DNA of 21,725 nt from a virus, in IMG/VR virus record IMGVR_UViG_3300025311_000019, positions 1-21,725 of that record; one strand, given 5' to 3'. Below are positions 5,170 to 15,889 of this stretch, piece by piece (the first letter of the stretch is position 1; each line of letters starts with the position of its first letter). The notes under the pieces were generated by a model. It did no database searches. It saw nothing but the letters and a program-made list of their open reading frames with translations, and was not told where the DNA came from. The translations under genes and the position numbers were made by a program.

Positions 5170-5685
5170 TTAAGCCTCCTGCTTGCCGACGGCGAACTGT
5201 TCGGCGGAAAGCCCGAGGGCTTTCATCACCGCGACATCGACGGCGGACGGTTGAGAATTTCCGGCGCCGCCCTGGCCGGCGCCGCCGGTTTGGGTTGCGC
5301 CGGGCTTGACCACCACGGGGGCGGCCTCGACGTAAGCCTTCAACGCCGCCAGGTCGGACTTGCCCAGGTTGCGCGCCCAGGTCTCGGTGGCCGGCGTGAG
5401 CTTGCCGGCGGCGAGTGCCGCGGTAACGACCGCATCGACTTCCGCGCTGCCCTTTTCGGCCCGCAGCGCGGCCAGCTCGGTACGCGCGGCGGACAAATCG
5501 CCCTGTACGGCGGTGAGCGCGGCGACTTCGATGTACTTCGCCGGATCGGGCGGGGTGGCCAAATGCGCGCCCTTGAGCGCGACCAGCTCGCCCTGGTGGG
5601 CGGATTTCAAGCCGGCCAGCGCGGCAAGCGCCTCGGCCTCGGTGGCCGTCTCGGGTAATCCGAGCGCGGCGAGCAATGCTTTCAT
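5170..5685 (-). CDS. Z: Scaffold protein from an internal start in gpI (Mu gpZ-like)
   Basis: An in-frame internal ATG at 5685 (MKALLAALGLPETATEAEAL) lies 6 bases after a strong GAGGAG, better than the ribosome binding site of gpI itself. The product would be 171 aa, Ala/Glu-rich and mostly helical, with coiled-coil-like stretches at about residues 25-75. In Mu, gpZ is made this way from the 3' end of gene I and serves as the capsid assembly scaffold. The gene shares all its codons with gpI. The internal initiation is well supported but unproven. Confidence 0.72.
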   Translation of the reverse strand: MKALLAALGLPETATEAEALAALAGLKSAHQGELVALKGAHLATPPDPAKYIEVAALTAVQGDLSAARTELAALRAEKGSAEVDAVVTAALAAGKLTPATETWARNLGKSDLAALKAYVEAAPVVVKPGATQTGGAGQGGAGNSQPSAVDVAVMKALGLSAEQFAVGKQEA

Positions 5686-6228
5686 GGGCATCTCCTCTTG
5701 GGGTTGGAAAAACTTGGCGGCAAACGCGGACAGGGCGGCCAGATCGGTCAAACCGTCGAGGCCGGCGTAATTGGTAAGCGCGGCGTGCAGCACAGCCAGC
5801 ACTTCGCCGGTGCGCTTGTCATGGGTGAACACGGGGCTGACGTAACGGTATTCGCGCGCCGCGATCATGGCGGCCGCGGCGGCGGTCCATTCGACATCGA
5901 CGGCCCACAGGCCGGCGTCGCGCGCTTCCAGCTTGCCGGCCCAGCCCGCGGCGGGCGCCGGCTTGCCGTTGGTTTCGGCATGCAGCGTCTGATGCTCGTA
6001 GTCGATCACGCGGGCGTCGCTGCGGGCATTGAAGGCGGTGGCCACCGCCACCGCCCTTGCCTTGTCGAGCTTCCAGCCGCCCTCGATGCCGAAGGGGCGG
6101 CCCGAGCCATCGGCGGCCTTGAAGCGACCGTAGGGCAACAGGCGGAACTCGCGCGGCGGCACATTGCCGGCGGCGGCCAGCTCGACGGACAGGGCGGCAA
6201 CAGCGAAGGGGGCGGCGTTGGATTTCAT
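5170..6228 (-). CDS. I: Prohead protease with fused scaffold (Mu gpI-like)
   Basis: 352 aa from ATG 6228. A GTG at 6237 is also in frame, but AAGGTG lies 6 bases before the ATG. The N-terminal protease domain (about 1-180) shows 'REFRLLPYGRF', 'ARVIDYEHQT' and 'REYRYVSPVFTHD', all characteristic of Mu gpI. The His in DYEHQT and the Ser in YVSPVF are plausible catalytic residues by analogy with other capsid proteases; this is inference. From about residue 180 the protein becomes Ala-rich and helical, the scaffold part. The gene follows a late-promoter-like motif and begins the second late block. Confidence 0.9.
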   Translation of the reverse strand: MKSNAAPFAVAALSVELAAAGNVPPREFRLLPYGRFKAADGSGRPFGIEGGWKLDKARAVAVATAFNARSDARVIDYEHQTLHAETNGKPAPAAGWAGKLEARDAGLWAVDVEWTAAAAAMIAAREYRYVSPVFTHDKRTGEVLAVLHAALTNYAGLDGLTDLAALSAFAAKFFQPQEEMPMKALLAALGLPETATEAEALAALAGLKSAHQGELVALKGAHLATPPDPAKYIEVAALTAVQGDLSAARTELAALRAEKGSAEVDAVVTAALAAGKLTPATETWARNLGKSDLAALKAYVEAAPVVVKPGATQTGGAGQGGAGNSQPSAVDVAVMKALGLSAEQFAVGKQEA

Positions 6229-6259
6229 GACGCCCACCTTATCGACCGACCCCCGGCGA

Positions 6260-6280
6260 CTCCATTAACCGGAGTTAGAA
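6260..6280 (-). promoter_or_regulatory. Late-promoter-like motif upstream of gpI (P-I equivalent)
   Basis: On the minus strand the core is TAACTCCGGTTA, a dyad (TAAC-N4-GTTA), flanked by TTC before and ATGGAG after. The same 21 bp recur with one mismatch at 15869-15889, before the lysis operon. Here 31 bp separate the block from the gpI ATG; there 32 bp separate it from the first lysis-operon ATG. Mu has C-activated promoters at exactly these two places. GTTAAT could itself be the -10 element, giving a leader of about 28 nt, or the dyad could be the activator site. Confidence 0.65.
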
Positions 6281-6323
6281 ACCATTCCCGCCAAGAGTCG
6301 GCGTTGGCGGCACGGCGATTCGC

Positions 6324-6352
6324 TTGACATCGCGCGGCGCGGCGCGGAAAAT
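6324..6352 (+). promoter_or_regulatory. Sigma70-type promoter of the cargo island
   Basis: A perfect TTGACA (-35) at 6324-6329 is followed after 17 bp by GAAAAT (6347-6352), matching the -10 consensus at four of six positions. The transcript would start near 6359-6361, reading into CTAGAACCAAAGG. It points away from gpI, so it is divergent from the late-promoter motif 44 bp to its left. A consensus -35 fits a unit expressed in the prophage state without phage activators; expression is inferred. Confidence 0.6.
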
Positions 6353-6358
6353 CGGCCG

Positions 6359-6436
6359 CACTAGAACCAAAGGCGGAAGTCACACCCGTAAGCCACGTGA
6401 CGACCGTCGCCCCTACCCAGGGGCGTTGTTGTTTGT
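6359..6436 (+). ncRNA. Putative short leader RNA of the cargo island
   Basis: Between the predicted start near 6359 and the terminator ending at 6436 lies a stretch of about 78 nt without a convincing reading frame. Its 5' end, CTAGAACCAAAGG (6361-6373), is complementary at 12 positions to CCTTTGGACTCTAG (6499-6512) further down the same transcript, and is a near copy of CTTAGACCAAAGG (6541-6553) at the ribosome binding site. It could act as a short RNA controlling downstream translation. No known family is recognised. Confidence 0.4.
6408..6436 (+). terminator. Intrinsic terminator / attenuator in the cargo leader
   Basis: A perfect 7-bp stem CGCCCCT (6408-6414) and AGGGGCG (6419-6425) with an ACCC tetraloop is followed by TTGTTGTTTGT (6426-6436). 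It lies about 50 nt after the predicted transcript start and 124 nt before the first gene. Most transcripts may therefore stop here, leaving a short RNA, with read-through needed to express the genes. Confidence 0.7.
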
Positions 6437-6446
6437 AGAGTTTCAC

Positions 6447-6555
6447 GGCGGGCCGAGAGTCGGAAATACAACACCCTCGGGGAATACCGGCCAGAGTTCC
6501 TTTGGACTCTAGTTGAGGCCCGCCACCATCAGAAGTCCAACTTAGACCAAAGGAG
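6447..6555 (+). promoter_or_regulatory. Structured 5' leader able to mask the ribosome binding site
   Basis: Three sets of pairings are visible. GGCGGGCC (6447-6454) pairs with GGCCCGCC (6517-6524). AGAGTTCC (6493-6500) pairs with GGACTCT (6504-6510) around a TTT loop with one bulged T. TCCTTTGG (6498-6505) can instead pair with CCAAAGGA (6547-6554), which contains the Shine-Dalgarno of the 73-aa gene. The last two are mutually exclusive, the arrangement expected of a translational switch. No known riboswitch class is recognised; the fold is judged by eye. Confidence 0.5.
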
Positions 6556-6560
6556 CCATC

Positions 6561-6782
6561 ATGGCTAATCATCTTGATATCAACGCGGAGGAAATCCGCG
6601 ACTGGGCAGCGCAGGCGCGCTACGTGATGCTCGCGGCGCGCAGCCTGGAGAACGGTCCGCCGACGGACAAAATGGAGCGCATCAACTGCATGCTCTACCT
6701 GCTGGAAGTGGCGGAGGATCTGGCGGAACGCGCCGAGAACGCGGCGGACCACCTGGCAACGTTCCTGCGGGAGCCCGCATGA
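6561..6782 (+). CDS. Small acidic helical protein, cargo gene 1
   Basis: 73 aa, not recognised. It is acidic and almost wholly helical in appearance, with heptad-like spacing in the second half (LLEVAEDLAERAENAADHLATF), suggesting a coiled coil or helical dimer. There is one Cys (44) and no signal or membrane segment. ATG 6561 has AAAGGAG at proper spacing, which the leader can mask. Its stop overlaps the next start as ATGA. The plus-strand orientation, own promoter and coupling support a real gene. A partner or antitoxin-like role is possible but not shown. Confidence 0.75.
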   Translation: MANHLDINAEEIRDWAAQARYVMLAARSLENGPPTDKMERINCMLYLLEVAEDLAERAENAADHLATFLREPA

Positions 6783-6940
6783 AGCCCGCCACGATCCTGC
6801 ACTGCCTGCGCGAGCTGCTGGCGTTACTGCATGCCGCCGTGCTTGCCCATCCCGATCCGCGCGCCGTGGCCGCCACGCTGCGCGCCCTGGCCGCCGAGTC
6901 GCAACGGCTGGCCTCGAAGCTGGACAGGAGGCTGTCATGA
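6779..6940 (+). CDS. Small helical protein, cargo gene 2
   Basis: 53 aa (MKPATILHCLRELLALLHAA...), not recognised. It starts inside the stop of the 73-aa gene (ATGA) and its own stop overlaps the next frame the same way. It is Leu/Ala-rich, with two amphipathic helices split by 'HPDPRA' at about residues 24-29 and a basic C-terminus (SKLDRRLS). The preceding gene is acidic, so the two products could form a complex; this is inference. It has no signal peptide, and its helices contain too many charged residues to be clearly membrane-spanning. Confidence 0.65.
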   Translation: MKPATILHCLRELLALLHAAVLAHPDPRAVAATLRALAAESQRLASKLDRRLS

Positions 6941-7026
6941 ACAGCTTGTCCACAGCTTGTGCACTTATCATCAGGCGCGAGGTGGTAAATAATCCCAGCT
7001 CACTAATCGAAAGGATGCTGCCGTGA
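6937..7026 (+). CDS. 29-aa micro-ORF, cargo gene 3
   Basis: ATG 6937 opens a 29-codon frame (MNSLSTACALIIRREVVNNP...) with an excellent AGGAGG 6 bases upstream. It overlaps the previous stop as ATGA, and its own TGA overlaps the GTG start of the 243-aa gene (GTGA). It may be a true micro-protein or only a coupling leader for the next gene. It also spans the DnaA-box-like repeats and a possible internal promoter. Not recognised. Confidence 0.45.
   Translation: MNSLSTACALIIRREVVNNPSSLIERMLP
6946..6964 (+). repeat. DnaA-box-like site and short tandem repeat
   Basis: TTGTCCACA at 6946-6954 resembles a DnaA box. It lies in an 11-bp tandem repeat, AGCTTGTCCAC then AGCTTGTGCAC. TT(G/A)TCCACAGCTT recurs in the same orientation at 7841-7853, so the two copies flank the 243-aa gene. 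DnaA binding is inferred from the 9-mer only. Confidence 0.4.
6965..6993 (+). promoter_or_regulatory. Possible internal promoter for the 243-aa gene
   Basis: TTATCA (6965-6970), a 17-bp spacer and AATAAT (6988-6993, five of six consensus bases) lie 30 bp before the GTG start. This would allow the antirepressor-like gene to be transcribed without the leader-controlled promoter. The 29-aa frame runs through it, so both readings are possible. Confidence 0.45.
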
Positions 7027-7754
7027 GTGTTCATCCCATGTACCCAATGCAGGTAGGCAAGCAGAAGGTAATGATCGTCGACGCCTTCGGGCGCATGTAT
7101 GTGCCGCTGCGCAGTCTTTTTACGTTGACGCTCGAAGCCGCATGGTCGAGCTCACGCGCCAAGGCGGTGAGGCAAATGGAAACCCGGTTGCAGTTAAAAA
7201 CCCTCACGGTCGCCGCGGCAAGCGGGCGCATCAGCATGCAGCCGTGCCTGCGCGCGTCGCGGCTGACGGCTTTCTTGTGGACGCTCAGGCCAGGAAAACC
7301 CGAAACACGGGCGCGACTCGCAGCGCTACAGGACGAATGGGAGACCGCGTTACTGAACCGCCTCAAGCTCAACGATACGGAGCTTGACGATGCACCCGTC
7401 GGAGCAGTTGCCGACCTGGTCGAAAATGCGCGGCGTCCGTTGTTGAAGGAACTGGAGGTGGTGCGCGGCGATTTGGCGAAAGGCGGGTTCAGGACGGGGC
7501 CGGACCTTACGATGCGCGACGCCGCATTACGGAGGTGGGGTACCCAAAAAGGCAAAGCCCTGACGACGGATGATTTCTTGGCAATGGCGGAAATGGGGCA
7601 AGAGGGCAGCAGCCCGTCCGAGATCGCCAAGGCGGCCGGATGTTCACGGACGGCCGTCAGCCTGTTCCTGTACGGCAAACTACCCACCAAAGCCGCCGTC
7701 GAGGCCGTCAAAATCCTCAAAACTCGCGGATGGGTGCCAAGGGTCGCCTCGTAG
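7023..7754 (+). CDS. Antirepressor-like DNA-binding protein, cargo gene 4
   Basis: 243 aa from a GTG start (AAAGGA 9 bases upstream; ATG 7038 is a later alternative). Residues about 13-110 resemble the N-terminal domain of P22-type antirepressors: 'VDAFGRMYVPLRSLFTLTLEAAWSS', then 'ISMQPCLRASRLTAFLWTLRP' and 'RLAALQDEWETALLNRL'. Residues about 197-218 (SPSEIAKAAGCSRTAVSLFL) form a clear helix-turn-helix. The two parts suggest a regulator of phage or host genes. It is the last gene of the plus-strand unit and is followed by a strong terminator. The exact target is unknown. Confidence 0.68.
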   Translation: MSVHPMYPMQVGKQKVMIVDAFGRMYVPLRSLFTLTLEAAWSSSRAKAVRQMETRLQLKTLTVAAASGRISMQPCLRASRLTAFLWTLRPGKPETRARLAALQDEWETALLNRLKLNDTELDDAPVGAVADLVENARRPLLKELEVVRGDLAKGGFRTGPDLTMRDAALRRWGTQKGKALTTDDFLAMAEMGQEGSSPSEIAKAAGCSRTAVSLFLYGKLPTKAAVEAVKILKTRGWVPRVAS

Positions 7755-7894: not shown

Positions 7895-7982
7895 CGGGCT
7901 TCGGGTCGGCTACACTGCAAGTGCGGGCGCGACACGGTGATATTCCCCCGGCCGTAGCACGGCAGTGATGCCGGAGCGCCAT

Positions 7983-8018
7983 GTGGGGTTGCCGGGAAAC
8001 CGGACTGGGGGGCCCCAC
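7983..8018. other. Nested hairpin downstream of gpF
   Basis: An outer pairing GTGGGG (7983-7988) with CCCCAC (8013-8018) encloses CCGG-GAAA-CCGG. It lies just after the gpF stop on the minus strand, in the gap 7755-8036, which otherwise holds only the DnaA-like site and the plus-strand terminator. It could help end or stabilise the first late transcript. No T-run follows. Confidence 0.35.
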
Positions 8019-8036
8019 CGCCCGCATCCCCGCGCA

Positions 8037-9233
8037 TCACTTCTTCGCCTTCTTCAAGAGGCGCTTGATTTCCTCGTTGCGCTTCACTTCCTTGCTCGAC
8101 AGCCGCCGGAAGCTGGTCATGAACGCGGCGCGGCCGGTCTGCGTGGCCTTGATGACCGTGACGTAGCCTTCTTCTTCGAGCAGGAACAGCATCGCCGTGG
8201 CGGATTCCTGCACGGCCTGCCCGCGCGCCAGGGCGTCCTGGACGTAGCGGTACTCGGCGGCGGCGATCTCCGGGTGCTCGGCGGCCTGCTTGGCCATCGT
8301 CGCCGCCGACAGGCGCACCACGTCGGTGGCGAGCGCCAGATCGGCGGCGTGATTGGCGCGCAGCACGCCGATCGGCCAGTCGCCGGCCGGGGCCTGCGCC
8401 CAGGCGGCGAAGGCTTCGCCCGAGAGCGAGGCGACGGCGGCGGGACGCAGATCGGCCGGGAGCTGTTCGAGCTTGCCGGCCAGGGCGCCGACCAGGCTGG
8501 CGCGGCGGCCGCCCGGCGGGTAGTTGAATTCGGGGTCCACGCCGGCCGGCACGCGGCTGGTTTCGCCGGTGCGCTGGTTGGTGTAGTCGAGGTAACGCTC
8601 GGCCGGCGCCTGGCCGACCTTGAGGCCGTGGCGGTCGATCTGGCGCCGCCCCAATTGAATCCAGCGACATTTGCAGCCCCAGGCCTTGACCGGTGAATGC
8701 GCGGCCACCCACGGATCATCCACCGGCAGCACCAGGCCATCCCACGCGGCGTGTTCCTTGCGTTCGTGCGCGCTGGGTGTGTGGTCGTACATCAGGTACG
8801 GCATGCTGGCCTTGGCTTCCTGGATGCGCTCCCACTGGCCTTCGCTGTGCGCGGTGCGCAGATTGGTGTCGTAGATCACCTTGAGCCGGCGCGGGCTGCC
8901 GAGCTGCACGTCCTTGAGTTGGCCGTCGGCCGGATCGGCCATCGTGGCGCGGCCCCACCAGCCGCGCTTGACCAGCTCGGGCTTGAGCCCGGCCTTGAAG
9001 GTCTCGAAGGTGGTGCCGTTGGCGATCGCGCCGTCGACATAGGTACGGATCTCGCGCAGCAGATCCACCTGCATGGCCTTGGCCACAGTGAAGGCGGCCT
9101 GGTGTTCCTCCTGCCAGACATCGCGATGGTCGAAGCCGATGGCGTAACCCTTCTGGCGGAAAAAGGCGATGGCCTCCTCCGGCGGGCGCAGCCCCAGGCG
9201 GATGGCCGGCTCAGTTGCCATCTCAGTTGCCAT
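8037..9233 (-). CDS. F: Minor head protein (Mu gpF-like) with C-terminal BECR nuclease-like domain
   Basis: 398 aa from ATG 9233; a second ATG at 9221 is an alternative created by a 12-bp duplication. Residues about 1-240 are the Phage_Mu_F domain: 'EAIAFFRQKGY', 'VIYDTNLRTAHSEGQWERIQ', 'YLMYDHTPSAHERKEHAAWDG', 'WGCKCRWIQL'. The protein is a minor head component needed for capsid morphogenesis. Residues about 285-390, 'DVVRLSAATMAKQAAEHPE...VTVIKATQTGRAAFMTSFRRL', resemble the phage BECR-type (PBECR) RNase-like domains fused to such proteins. It is the last gene of late block 1. Confidence 0.87.
   Translation of the reverse strand: MATEMATEPAIRLGLRPPEEAIAFFRQKGYAIGFDHRDVWQEEHQAAFTVAKAMQVDLLREIRTYVDGAIANGTTFETFKAGLKPELVKRGWWGRATMADPADGQLKDVQLGSPRRLKVIYDTNLRTAHSEGQWERIQEAKASMPYLMYDHTPSAHERKEHAAWDGLVLPVDDPWVAAHSPVKAWGCKCRWIQLGRRQIDRHGLKVGQAPAERYLDYTNQRTGETSRVPAGVDPEFNYPPGGRRASLVGALAGKLEQLPADLRPAAVASLSGEAFAAWAQAPAGDWPIGVLRANHAADLALATDVVRLSAATMAKQAAEHPEIAAAEYRYVQDALARGQAVQESATAMLFLLEEEGYVTVIKATQTGRAAFMTSFRRLSSKEVKRNEEIKRLLKKAKK
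9210..9233 (-). repeat. 12-bp tandem duplication at the portal/gpF junction
   Basis: ATGGCAACTGAG occurs twice in a row on the minus strand (copies at 9233-9222 and 9221-9210). Each copy carries a potential gpF start, and the first contains the portal stop TGA. The duplication gives gpF the N-terminus MATEMATEP and two possible starts. Confidence 0.9.
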
Positions 9234-10800
9234 TGATTCGGCCCCAGACCACGGCCGCGAAATCGCCCTGGGCGATCTGCGCGGCCAGCGCCGCGGCATC
9301 CATCTGCGCTATGACGGCCGGCAGGCGCTCGCGGAACTGCTCCAGGCTGGCGCATTCGTCGGCCAGGCGCTCGATGGGCGTAACGAGCGGATCGAGCACA
9401 GGCTGCCATTCGCTGCCCATGTCGGCGGCGAGCCAATCCAGCTCGTCCTGGGTTTCGTCGGCGGCGCCCTGGGCTTTCAGCGCCGCGCGGGCGGCGGCCG
9501 GATCGGGCGGCGGCTTGCCGCCCTGGCCCGCCGTGTCGCCAGCGCCGACTTCCTTGCCCAGGGTCGCCTCGCCCTCGGCCGGCTCGGGAATACGCAGCTT
9601 CTCGTGCACCCACTTGACCGGGATCGTCCTCATGCCGGACGTGGTCAGCTTGTCGAGCCCGTCGGCCAGCGTGGCGATGTCGGCGGCCTCGCCGGTATCG
9701 AACACCAGGCGCGCGCAGCGGGACAGGCTGTCGACGCCGCGGTTGAGCGCCAGCAGCGGATAGAGGACATCGCGCGTGGCCGTGCCGGCGATCTGGCGCG
9801 CATCCGCATTGCGAATATCCTTGCGCACCTCGTTGTGCAGATCGGCCACGCCCGAGCCCATGCCGGTGGCCTTGGCCTCGGCGGAGAGCACCTGGCCGAG
9901 AATGGCCTTGCTCTGCGCGCCCTCGGCCCAGCCGACCATCGCCAGGTGCGGCGTGCCGCTGCCGTCGGCGGTGACCTTGTTGATCTCGATGGCCATGTCG
10001 GCCGGCATGATGGCGCGCGCATCGTGGCCCAGGGCCGTGACGGCGCGCATCAGGCTGGCTTTTTCGTCCTGGCTGGCGCCCTGGTAGTACTTGCCCAGCA
10101 CGATCGGCAGGCCGTAGGTTTCCAGGAACTCCGCGAAATCGCCGATGCCATAGGCTTTGTAGAGGAAGGGCCAGACCAGGGCGCGGTACAGGCCCATGCG
10201 GCCCTGGTAGCCGGTCTTCGCCTTGCCGTGGGTGTGCATGACCCAGCCGAAGGGGGCCAGCGGCGCGCCGTCGGCGCTGGCGTCCTGCAAGCGCAGCTCG
10301 CGGCGATGGCGGTCGAGGCGGAACCATTCCTGCGGGCGCGGGAAGAAGGCCGGCAGCCATTCCTTACCCTCCTGCCGCCATTCCAGTTCGACCGGGGCAA
10401 AGCCGTGGCCCACACCCTCCATCGCCGCCAGCAGCAGATCCTCGAACGGATCCACGGCGTCGGTCAGCACTTCCTTGAGCCACTCCGCGTCGGCCTTCTC
10501 CTTGGCCGTGGCGTTACGCGGCGGAACGATATCCCAGTCCAGGCCCATCACGGCGTTCTTGCGTTTGCCTATCTCGCACAGCAGGTGCGCATCGCGTTCC
10601 TCCATATCGGCGAACAGCCGGTGCTGGGCGGTGAGGTCGCCGTCGTCGGCCTGCCGCAGCACAGTGGACAGGCGCGCCGGCGTCAGCCCGGCGAGCATCG
10701 GGGTCAGGAAGCGGTTCTCCAGCATCGCAATACGGCTGGTCTGCGCCTCCTTGAGGACGCCGGTGTCGATCGGATTGCCGTACTGGTCAAGAATCTTCAT
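9223..10800 (-). CDS. Portal protein (Mu gp29-like, DUF935)
   Basis: 525 aa from ATG 10800; a TTG two codons earlier is also in frame but less likely. Family marks are 'DGDLTAQHRLFADMEERDAHLLCEIGKRKNAVMGLDWDIVPP' at about 50-95, 'VGHGFAPVELEW', 'KAYGIGDFAEFLETYGLPIVLGKY' and 'LHNEVRKDIRNADARQIAGT'. Portals form the ring at one capsid vertex through which DNA is packaged. The last ~100 residues are acidic and Ala/Gly-rich. It starts 2 bp after the terminase stop and overlaps the gpF start by 11 bp, the Mu order gp28-gp29-F. Confidence 0.93.
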   Translation of the reverse strand: MKILDQYGNPIDTGVLKEAQTSRIAMLENRFLTPMLAGLTPARLSTVLRQADDGDLTAQHRLFADMEERDAHLLCEIGKRKNAVMGLDWDIVPPRNATAKEKADAEWLKEVLTDAVDPFEDLLLAAMEGVGHGFAPVELEWRQEGKEWLPAFFPRPQEWFRLDRHRRELRLQDASADGAPLAPFGWVMHTHGKAKTGYQGRMGLYRALVWPFLYKAYGIGDFAEFLETYGLPIVLGKYYQGASQDEKASLMRAVTALGHDARAIMPADMAIEINKVTADGSGTPHLAMVGWAEGAQSKAILGQVLSAEAKATGMGSGVADLHNEVRKDIRNADARQIAGTATRDVLYPLLALNRGVDSLSRCARLVFDTGEAADIATLADGLDKLTTSGMRTIPVKWVHEKLRIPEPAEGEATLGKEVGAGDTAGQGGKPPPDPAAARAALKAQGAADETQDELDWLAADMGSEWQPVLDPLVTPIERLADECASLEQFRERLPAVIAQMDAAALAAQIAQGDFAAVVWGRINGN

Positions 10801-15868: not shown

Positions 15869-15889
15869 CTCCATTAACCGGCGTTAGAA
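15869..15889 (-). promoter_or_regulatory. Late-promoter-like motif upstream of the lysis operon (P-lys equivalent)
   Basis: The minus-strand core TAACGCCGGTTA, with flanking TTC and ATGGAG, matches the motif at 6260-6280 at 20 of 21 bases. It lies 4 bp after the middle-operon terminator and 32 bp before the Cys-rich gene. Mu places a C-activated promoter here. The Mor/C-family gene lies 0.85 kb upstream. Direct binding is inferred. Confidence 0.65.

Follow-up and report, generated by a model that had tools for sequence, protein, structure and literature searches.

A Mu-like phage leader with a probable self-targeting antisense RNA of the sRNA-Xcc1 type

The + strand leader at positions 6324-6560 of the 21.7-kb virus record analyzed here (the window) is probably a self-targeting antisense immunity-type module of the sRNA-Xcc1 type, working in the manner of the CI RNA of phage P4 and the c4 RNA of phage P1. 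What sequence comparison reveals is an attenuator and three elements that pair and co-vary; from these we infer repression by masking of the Shine-Dalgarno sequence (SD), a role for the 5' copy, processing of the RNA, either termination or titration as the mechanism, and the part played by the adjoining cassette. The original prediction had described a leader with an attenuator, an SD that can be masked, and three elements able to pair with one another. Our analysis supports that description and places every element at the coordinates proposed, and the three-way logic behind it is largely right.

RESULTS

The leader belongs to a divergent accessory cassette

The window carries a Mu-like late region on the - strand, with genes for the sheath, gpT, protease I, MuF, and portal proteins. 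The leader and the cassette that it precedes, comprising ORFs of 73, 53, and 243 aa, lie divergently on the + strand with MuF on one side and protease I on the other:

5170-6237, - strand: protease I gene
6561..6782, + strand: 73-aa target ORF, with a 35% identical homologue in L365
6779..6940, + strand: 53-aa ORF, overlapping the stop codon of the 73-aa ORF; no matches
6965-6993, + strand: promoter-like site of the 243-aa ORF, from a consensus scan
7023..7754, + strand: 243-aa regulator with a P22_AR_N-like N-terminus and a C-terminal HTH resembling that of the L365 Bro-N protein
8037-9299, - strand: MuF gene

The 73-aa ORF has no match in Pfam, PHROG, or NCBIfam. The 243-aa protein matches P22_AR_N with an E value of 3e-5, under the curated cut-off, and its C-terminal part gives weak matches to DNA-binding and repressor families. 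Positions 6940-6993, 5' of the 243-aa ORF, hold DnaA-box-like words (TTGTCCACAGCTTGTGCACTTATC) and adjoin the promoter-like site at 6965-6993. Searches for homologues of the 73-aa and 243-aa proteins among phages, plasmids, and viral contigs were empty, and the 243-aa protein has no match among 369 genomes. For the 73-aa protein, a search of genome contigs was likewise empty, and a later, sensitive family-level search of whole genomes led to L365.

In the closest relative of the window (L003/L006), the corresponding slot is occupied by unrelated genes, which indicates that the slot is accessory; for the same reason, this relative is uninformative about the leader. Its slot (L003:2999-4535, L006:468-2004) encodes membrane-type proteins of 321 and 193 aa on the late-gene strand. 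We presume that the slot of the window's cassette is the anti-CRISPR slot of Mu-like Pseudomonas phages. Anti-CRISPR genes of these phages lie in accessory loci (PMC4378225).

The leader contains a divergent relative of sRNA-Xcc1

A permissive covariance-model scan of 821 nt matched the leader to a single Rfam family, sRNA-Xcc1 (RF02221):

6447..6532, + strand: sRNA-Xcc1-like (RF02221) structured element with the putative antisense loop

The match scores 42.7 bits across model positions 1-87 of 87 (E 4.4e-6) and follows the consensus structure over its full length (E 1.4e-6 to 4.4e-6); the AAUACAA.ACCC..GGGGAAUA core, the outer stem, and the second hairpin of sRNA-Xcc1 are all shared. As 42.7 bits falls below the gathering score of 53, at which Rfam returns nothing in the window, the element is not a member under Rfam's rule and we file it as a divergent relative. 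The corresponding elements of two other loci described below, L365 (53.6 bits) and L140 (65.2 bits), do reach the gathering score. We also built a model, R1, which has only 3 base pairs because MAFFT misaligned the outer stem (A5 was also misaligned); it was used solely as a sequence detector, and since the window is in its training set, what the window scores with R1 is no independent evidence. The original prediction held that no riboswitch or sRNA class of this shape was known. That was wrong, given the RF02221 relationship of the middle element and the analogues known in P4 and P1 (PMC4825925, PMC8546580).

According to the parts of the literature available to us, sRNA-Xcc1 is a discrete RNA of about 88 nt in Xanthomonas (PMC2996969), precedes symE in integron cassettes of Xanthomonas (PMC12444791), is described in Xanthomonas and Xylella as trans-acting with many predicted targets (PMC2996969, PMC12189769), and is linked to virulence. 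These same partial accounts contain neither a self-target rule, nor the 5' copy, nor an antirepressor context, although prior description elsewhere is possible. The RNA family is known; the self-targeting rule and antirepressor context that our comparisons suggest are seemingly new for it.

Three segments of the leader are mutually complementary, and one is predicted to mask the SD

The features of the leader surrounding this element are as follows:

6324..6352, + strand: sigma-70-type promoter, TTGACA-17-GAAAAT, with the RNA start predicted near 6359
6359..6437, + strand: predicted short terminated 5' RNA, both ends deduced
6361..6373, + strand: 5' copy CTAGAACCAAAGG, seqA-like, with the core CCAAAGG at 6367-6373
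6372..6408, + strand: candidate antiterminator stem GGCGG/CCGUC, 6372-6376 with 6404-6408, from folding
6408..6435, + strand: intrinsic terminator or attenuator, CGCCCCUACCCAGGGGCG plus UUGUUGUUUG, from a consensus scan
6493..6510, + strand: hairpin 2 of the element, with the antisense loop UCCUUUGG at 6498-6505
6499-6512, + strand: inverted partner CCTTTGGACTCTAG, coordinates verified
6541..6555, + strand: SD copy CTTAGACCAAAGGAG, seqC-like, with the SD AAGGAG at 6550-6555; CTTAGACCAAAGG is 6541-6553

The 5' copy, loop, and SD copy of the window read CCAAAGG, CCTTTGG, and CCAAAGG, respectively. We verified both the proposed folding of the inverted partner on itself (6493-6510) and the proposed complementarity of 6498-6505 to 6547-6554; the loop is perfectly complementary to 7 nt of the 5' copy and to 8 nt at the SD. 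Among 5000 dinucleotide shuffles, complements of the loop as good as these arose upstream in 84, downstream in 18, and on both sides in none. Thermodynamic folding, which had been proposed as a check on the arrangement, found the read-through leader to be more stable than shuffled sequences (z -2.69), with a pairing probability of 0.92 for the loop-SD helix and a probability of at most 0.07 that the SD is unpaired. When 6495-6511 was held unpaired in silico, most of the SD flank opened. The first 13 nt of the 5' RNA are predicted to be single-stranded, exposing the 5' copy. In cofolding, the 5' RNA invades the closed element weakly (-60.6 vs -59.8 kcal/mol), which implies that kissing or an RNA chaperone would be needed.

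Related loci preserve this arrangement with different sequences. L365 encodes the 73-aa homologue together with a Bro-N/HTH protein that matches the 243-aa protein in its HTH region, both on the strand opposite a gpG-like morphogenesis gene, which points again to a Mu-like prophage. Its leader is 72% identical to that of the window, conserves the position of the promoter, and holds an RF02221 element (L365:634-719, +) opposite the late genes. The 5' copy, loop, and SD of L365 read TGATAAG, CTTATCA, and TGATAAG, so that all three have changed together relative to the window. This is the kind of compensatory change, CCAAAGG to TGATAAG in all copies, that the original prediction had proposed to look for in homologous prophages; it had regarded homologues that kept the genes and lacked the repeats as evidence to the contrary, and L365 presents the opposite case. 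In another Mu-like phage, L140, the module occupies the slot upstream of protease I with the code CTACTAG, the element (5522-5605, -) again lying on the strand opposite the late genes. The named phage Aaphi23 carries it between Q and ant (CAAACAG/CTGTTTG/CAAACAG). Judged chiefly by covariation in homologous loci, the three-segment arrangement is far beyond chance.

Loops co-vary with their own leader and SD across the sRNA-Xcc1 family

We surveyed sRNA-Xcc1 elements more broadly, finding them in 26 of 369 genomes of one class, 49 of 300 genomes of the Pseudoxanthomonas order, and 2 of 155 genomes of a third group, as well as in at least 120 viral stretches by pattern. The resulting 191 elements reduced to 152 non-redundant loci, window included. 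At each locus, the hairpin-2 loop was compared with the SD of the next gene and with a copy about 80 nt upstream, adjoining the attenuator. Both copies are at the required places in 86 of the 152 loci, among which 77 loop cores are distinct. Downstream, the match mostly stops 6-11 nt ahead of the start codon, as expected of SD spacing. At the thresholds used, at least one copy is missing in about 43% of non-redundant loci; some of these absences arise because the choice of hairpin was automatic and crude, and since loops were sometimes picked wrongly, the counts are probably lower bounds.

A swap test, which controls for composition and general SD-likeness, was applied to the 151 non-redundant loci with enough flank (3000 swaps; upstream region -125 to -40, downstream region +1 to +75). 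The mean score of a locus's own loop was 16.8 upstream and 16.2 downstream, as against 12.5 and 12.3 for swapped loops (sd 0.18-0.19), and none of the 3000 swap sets approached the own-loop scores. The presence of related loci in the sample makes this test conservative. Covariation between loci is thus what establishes, at the level of sequence, the three-way pairing.

In the Xanthomonadales group, the match of the loop to the 5' copy is strong (own 18.7 vs swapped 13.9), and the match to the SD is not significant in the swap test (14.1 vs 13.6). Retention of the former without the latter favors a separate role for the 5' copy. The sRNA-Xcc1 elements of the Xanthomonadales genomes L337-L361 are 83 nt long, and many of the ORFs downstream of them resemble one uncharacterised family (MSTxxxDxxxTGYFLPEDSQxRLxKLREY...).

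A predicted promoter and an attenuator precede the element

The predicted promoter begins with the TTGACA at 6324-6329 that had been pointed out originally, and scores 10/12 in our consensus scan; its -10 box (GAAAAT) is weak, and the scan found 2 sites where shuffles lead one to expect 0.2. Across the family, TTGAC occurs at -220..-90 of the element in 101 of 152 loci, as against 12 of 152 in a downstream control. The proposed 7-bp terminator hairpin is also present: 7 pairs at 6408-6425 followed by TTGTTGTTTG, included in the scan's terminator list. A T5 run at -90..-10 of the element, between the 5' copy and the element, is found at 123 of 152 loci.

The candidate antiterminator stem of the window shares GG with the 5' copy and one nucleotide with the base of the terminator, and that one nucleotide is the whole of the overlap between antiterminator and terminator here. 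A strict 1:2/2:3 attenuator with a T-run, starting at the end of the 5' copy, was detected in 45 of 127 loci, compared with 12 of 720 random anchors. In 39 of these 45 attenuators GCGG starts at the last G of the 5' copy, and in 95 of the 127 loci CGG is found where the 5' copy ends.

Most downstream genes encode antirepressor-type or SymE proteins

Pfam matches among 81 target ORFs were to Rha (12), KilA-N (12), P22_AR_C (11), Bro-N (10), AntA (7), SymE (7), ORF6N (6), and P22_AR_N (5), counts in which families may overlap within one protein. Most of the 81 thus belong to antirepressor-type families or SymE, and the typical target appears to be an antirepressor-type phage regulator. The target in the window is a small protein without a family match, within a cassette that also encodes the 243-aa regulator, a candidate antirepressor-type protein.

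Other conserved elements of the window

The window has two further features of note. A 104-nt non-coding element with a branched structure follows directly after MuF (7922-8026, - strand) and recurs at L003:2867-2971 and in L104, L103, L102, L056, L159, L099, and L169. Phages whose protease I proteins share only about 58-66% identity have this element with 98% identity, and 10 of its 32 predicted pairs show double compensatory changes; we found no conserved reading frame in it and no Rfam match at gathering threshold, only one at chance level (E 0.6). Model searches located weaker copies at L074:4412-4499, L105:4429-4511, and L160:3869-3955, those of L105 and L160 just after MuF. It appears to be a structured RNA of Mu-like phages not described before. 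The second feature is a 21-nt repeat with the dyad TAAC-N4-GTTA, present in the window only at 6260-6280 and 15869-15889, where it shortly precedes the protease I and lysis operons of the - strand. L020, L100, L102, and L104 conserve the dyad at a distance of 40-73 nt upstream of their protease I match, and the repeat is probably the site at which a Mu C-like late activator acts on the PI and Plys promoters.

DISCUSSION

A model for self-targeting control and its alternatives

We propose that transcripts from the 6324-6352 promoter would mostly end at the attenuator (6408-6435), and that the read-through RNA would carry the Xcc1-like element. The loop of hairpin 2 would then pair with the SD copy at 6547-6554, in cis or, once the element is processed, in trans, so that the 73-aa ORF would not be translated. 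This loop could also pair with the 5' copy (6367-6373) of nascent leaders and disturb the stem that adjoins it, so favoring termination. Through its action on both the SD and the 5' copy, the RNA would limit its own operon at two levels. Conversely, an excess of the short 5' RNA could titrate the loop, leaving the SD free. A lysogen with a matching private 7-nt code would keep the cassette silent, and expression would follow where the RNA is titrated or is absent, as upon zygotic entry. Provided that the module is real, control by termination, alone or in combination, seems somewhat the better bet: both the Xanthomonadales pattern and the overlap of the 5' copy with the candidate antiterminator favor a termination-type, P4-like role over titration.

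The strongest competitor is activation in trans. As with IsrK, the short 5' RNA would mimic the SD in trans, occupy the loop of read-through transcripts, and turn translation on, the 5' copy being a decoy and no target for termination. The 5' copy is identical to the SD and sits in a 5' tail that is predicted to be single-stranded; in silico, the SD opens once the loop is blocked; IsrK of Gifsy-1 acts in this way on the orf45-antirepressor operon downstream of antQ (PMC4825925); and Aaphi23 has the matching order Q, leader, ant. However, a pure decoy would not explain why Xanthomonadales loops match the 5' copy without a significant SD match, and the overlap of the 5' copy with the attenuator stem suggests a role in termination in cis. 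We therefore regard activation of this type as a tentative second reading, clearly less probable than self-repression.

Other explanations fare considerably worse. That the repeats are DNA operator half-sites, through which the HTH protein of the cassette represses itself as Aca proteins do at anti-CRISPR loci, would fit the presence of that protein, a site at the transcription start, and the occurrence of anti-CRISPR genes in accessory slots of Mu-like Pseudomonas phages (PMC4378225). The copies, however, always run sense, antisense, sense, the antisense one forming the loop of a hairpin and one of the sense ones being spaced like an SD; the motif differs in 77 loops across targets from many families; and operators do not predict an RNA-family match. 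We consider this reading very unlikely. More improbable still is a trans-acting sRNA directed at host or virulence genes, with incidental local complementarity. This is how sRNA-Xcc1 is described in the portions of the literature that we could consult (PMC2996969, PMC12189769), but its loops co-vary locus by locus with the adjacent 5' copy and SD, and as nearly all loops differ, a common host target is excluded; a host target as the main role is strongly disfavored by this co-variation. A ligand-binding riboswitch or a simple leader attenuator with chance repeats, which the attenuator and maskable SD might call to mind, has next to no likelihood given that RF02221 is the only Rfam match; chance repeats are refuted by the co-variation of L365 and L140 and by the 0 of 5000 joint shuffles.

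Implications of a self-targeting rule

Extending the model of self-targeting repression to the whole sRNA-Xcc1 family is a somewhat bolder step, but one that we judge reasonably likely to be correct: the family would be a portable phage immunity switch in which a private 7-nt loop acts both on an attenuator, by way of an upstream copy, and on an antirepressor-type gene, whose SD it masks, and diversified codes would define mutually blind immunity groups. That almost all loop codes are distinct suggests RNA-level heteroimmunity among prophages. If so, a family without an established target would acquire a testable rule, by which the loop has two partners, the 5' copy in the leader and the next gene's SD. 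The rule predicts which genes are silenced (antirepressors, SymE, and small unknown phage proteins) and which 7 nt switch each of them. The current reading of sRNA-Xcc1 as a virulence RNA acting in trans would need revision, and one switch would be common to Mu-like phages, other temperate phages, and integron cassettes.

Comparison with known antisense immunity systems

Several characterized systems share parts of this design. SymE/SymR is a type I toxin-antitoxin pair in which an RNA controls a toxin-like protein, and 7 of the 81 target ORFs match SymE_toxin; SymR, however, is encoded on the strand opposite its target, whereas the element of the window lies upstream on the same strand and its target is not SymE. 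IsrK of Gifsy-1 (RF01394) resembles the module in that one promoter yields a short terminated RNA and a read-through mRNA, with a small ORF and then an antirepressor downstream of a Q-like gene (PMC4825925). It differs in that its pairing partner lies inside orf45, without a separate structured antisense element, and searches with the IsrK covariance model were empty both in positions 6240-7060 of the window (up to E 1) and in eight loci of the family (up to E 0.1).

Closer in architecture is phage P4, whose CI RNA, seqA, and seqC bring about premature leader termination (PMC4825925). In both cases, an antisense RNA has a complement on either side of itself in the transcript, one upstream and one downstream, and a terminator, present in the window as well, separates the upstream target from the antisense RNA. 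Here, however, the RNA is of another family, its downstream partner is the SD of a small or antirepressor-type gene, and termination control and immunity are proposed properties of the window's module. The c4 RNA of P1 and P7 (RF01695) is likewise a small antisense RNA that acts at a ribosome-binding site and controls antirepressor synthesis (PMC8546580, PMC12197685). Its covariance model gives no match in 6240-7060 at E values up to 1, and, in the part of the c4 description at hand, an upstream copy of the target and an attenuator are absent. By analogy of function, the repression of Ant synthesis by P1 c4 (PMC8546580) is the closest parallel to the control proposed here. If our reading is correct, a structurally distinct and widespread class joins the phage antisense immunity RNAs of P1, P4, P22, and Gifsy-1.
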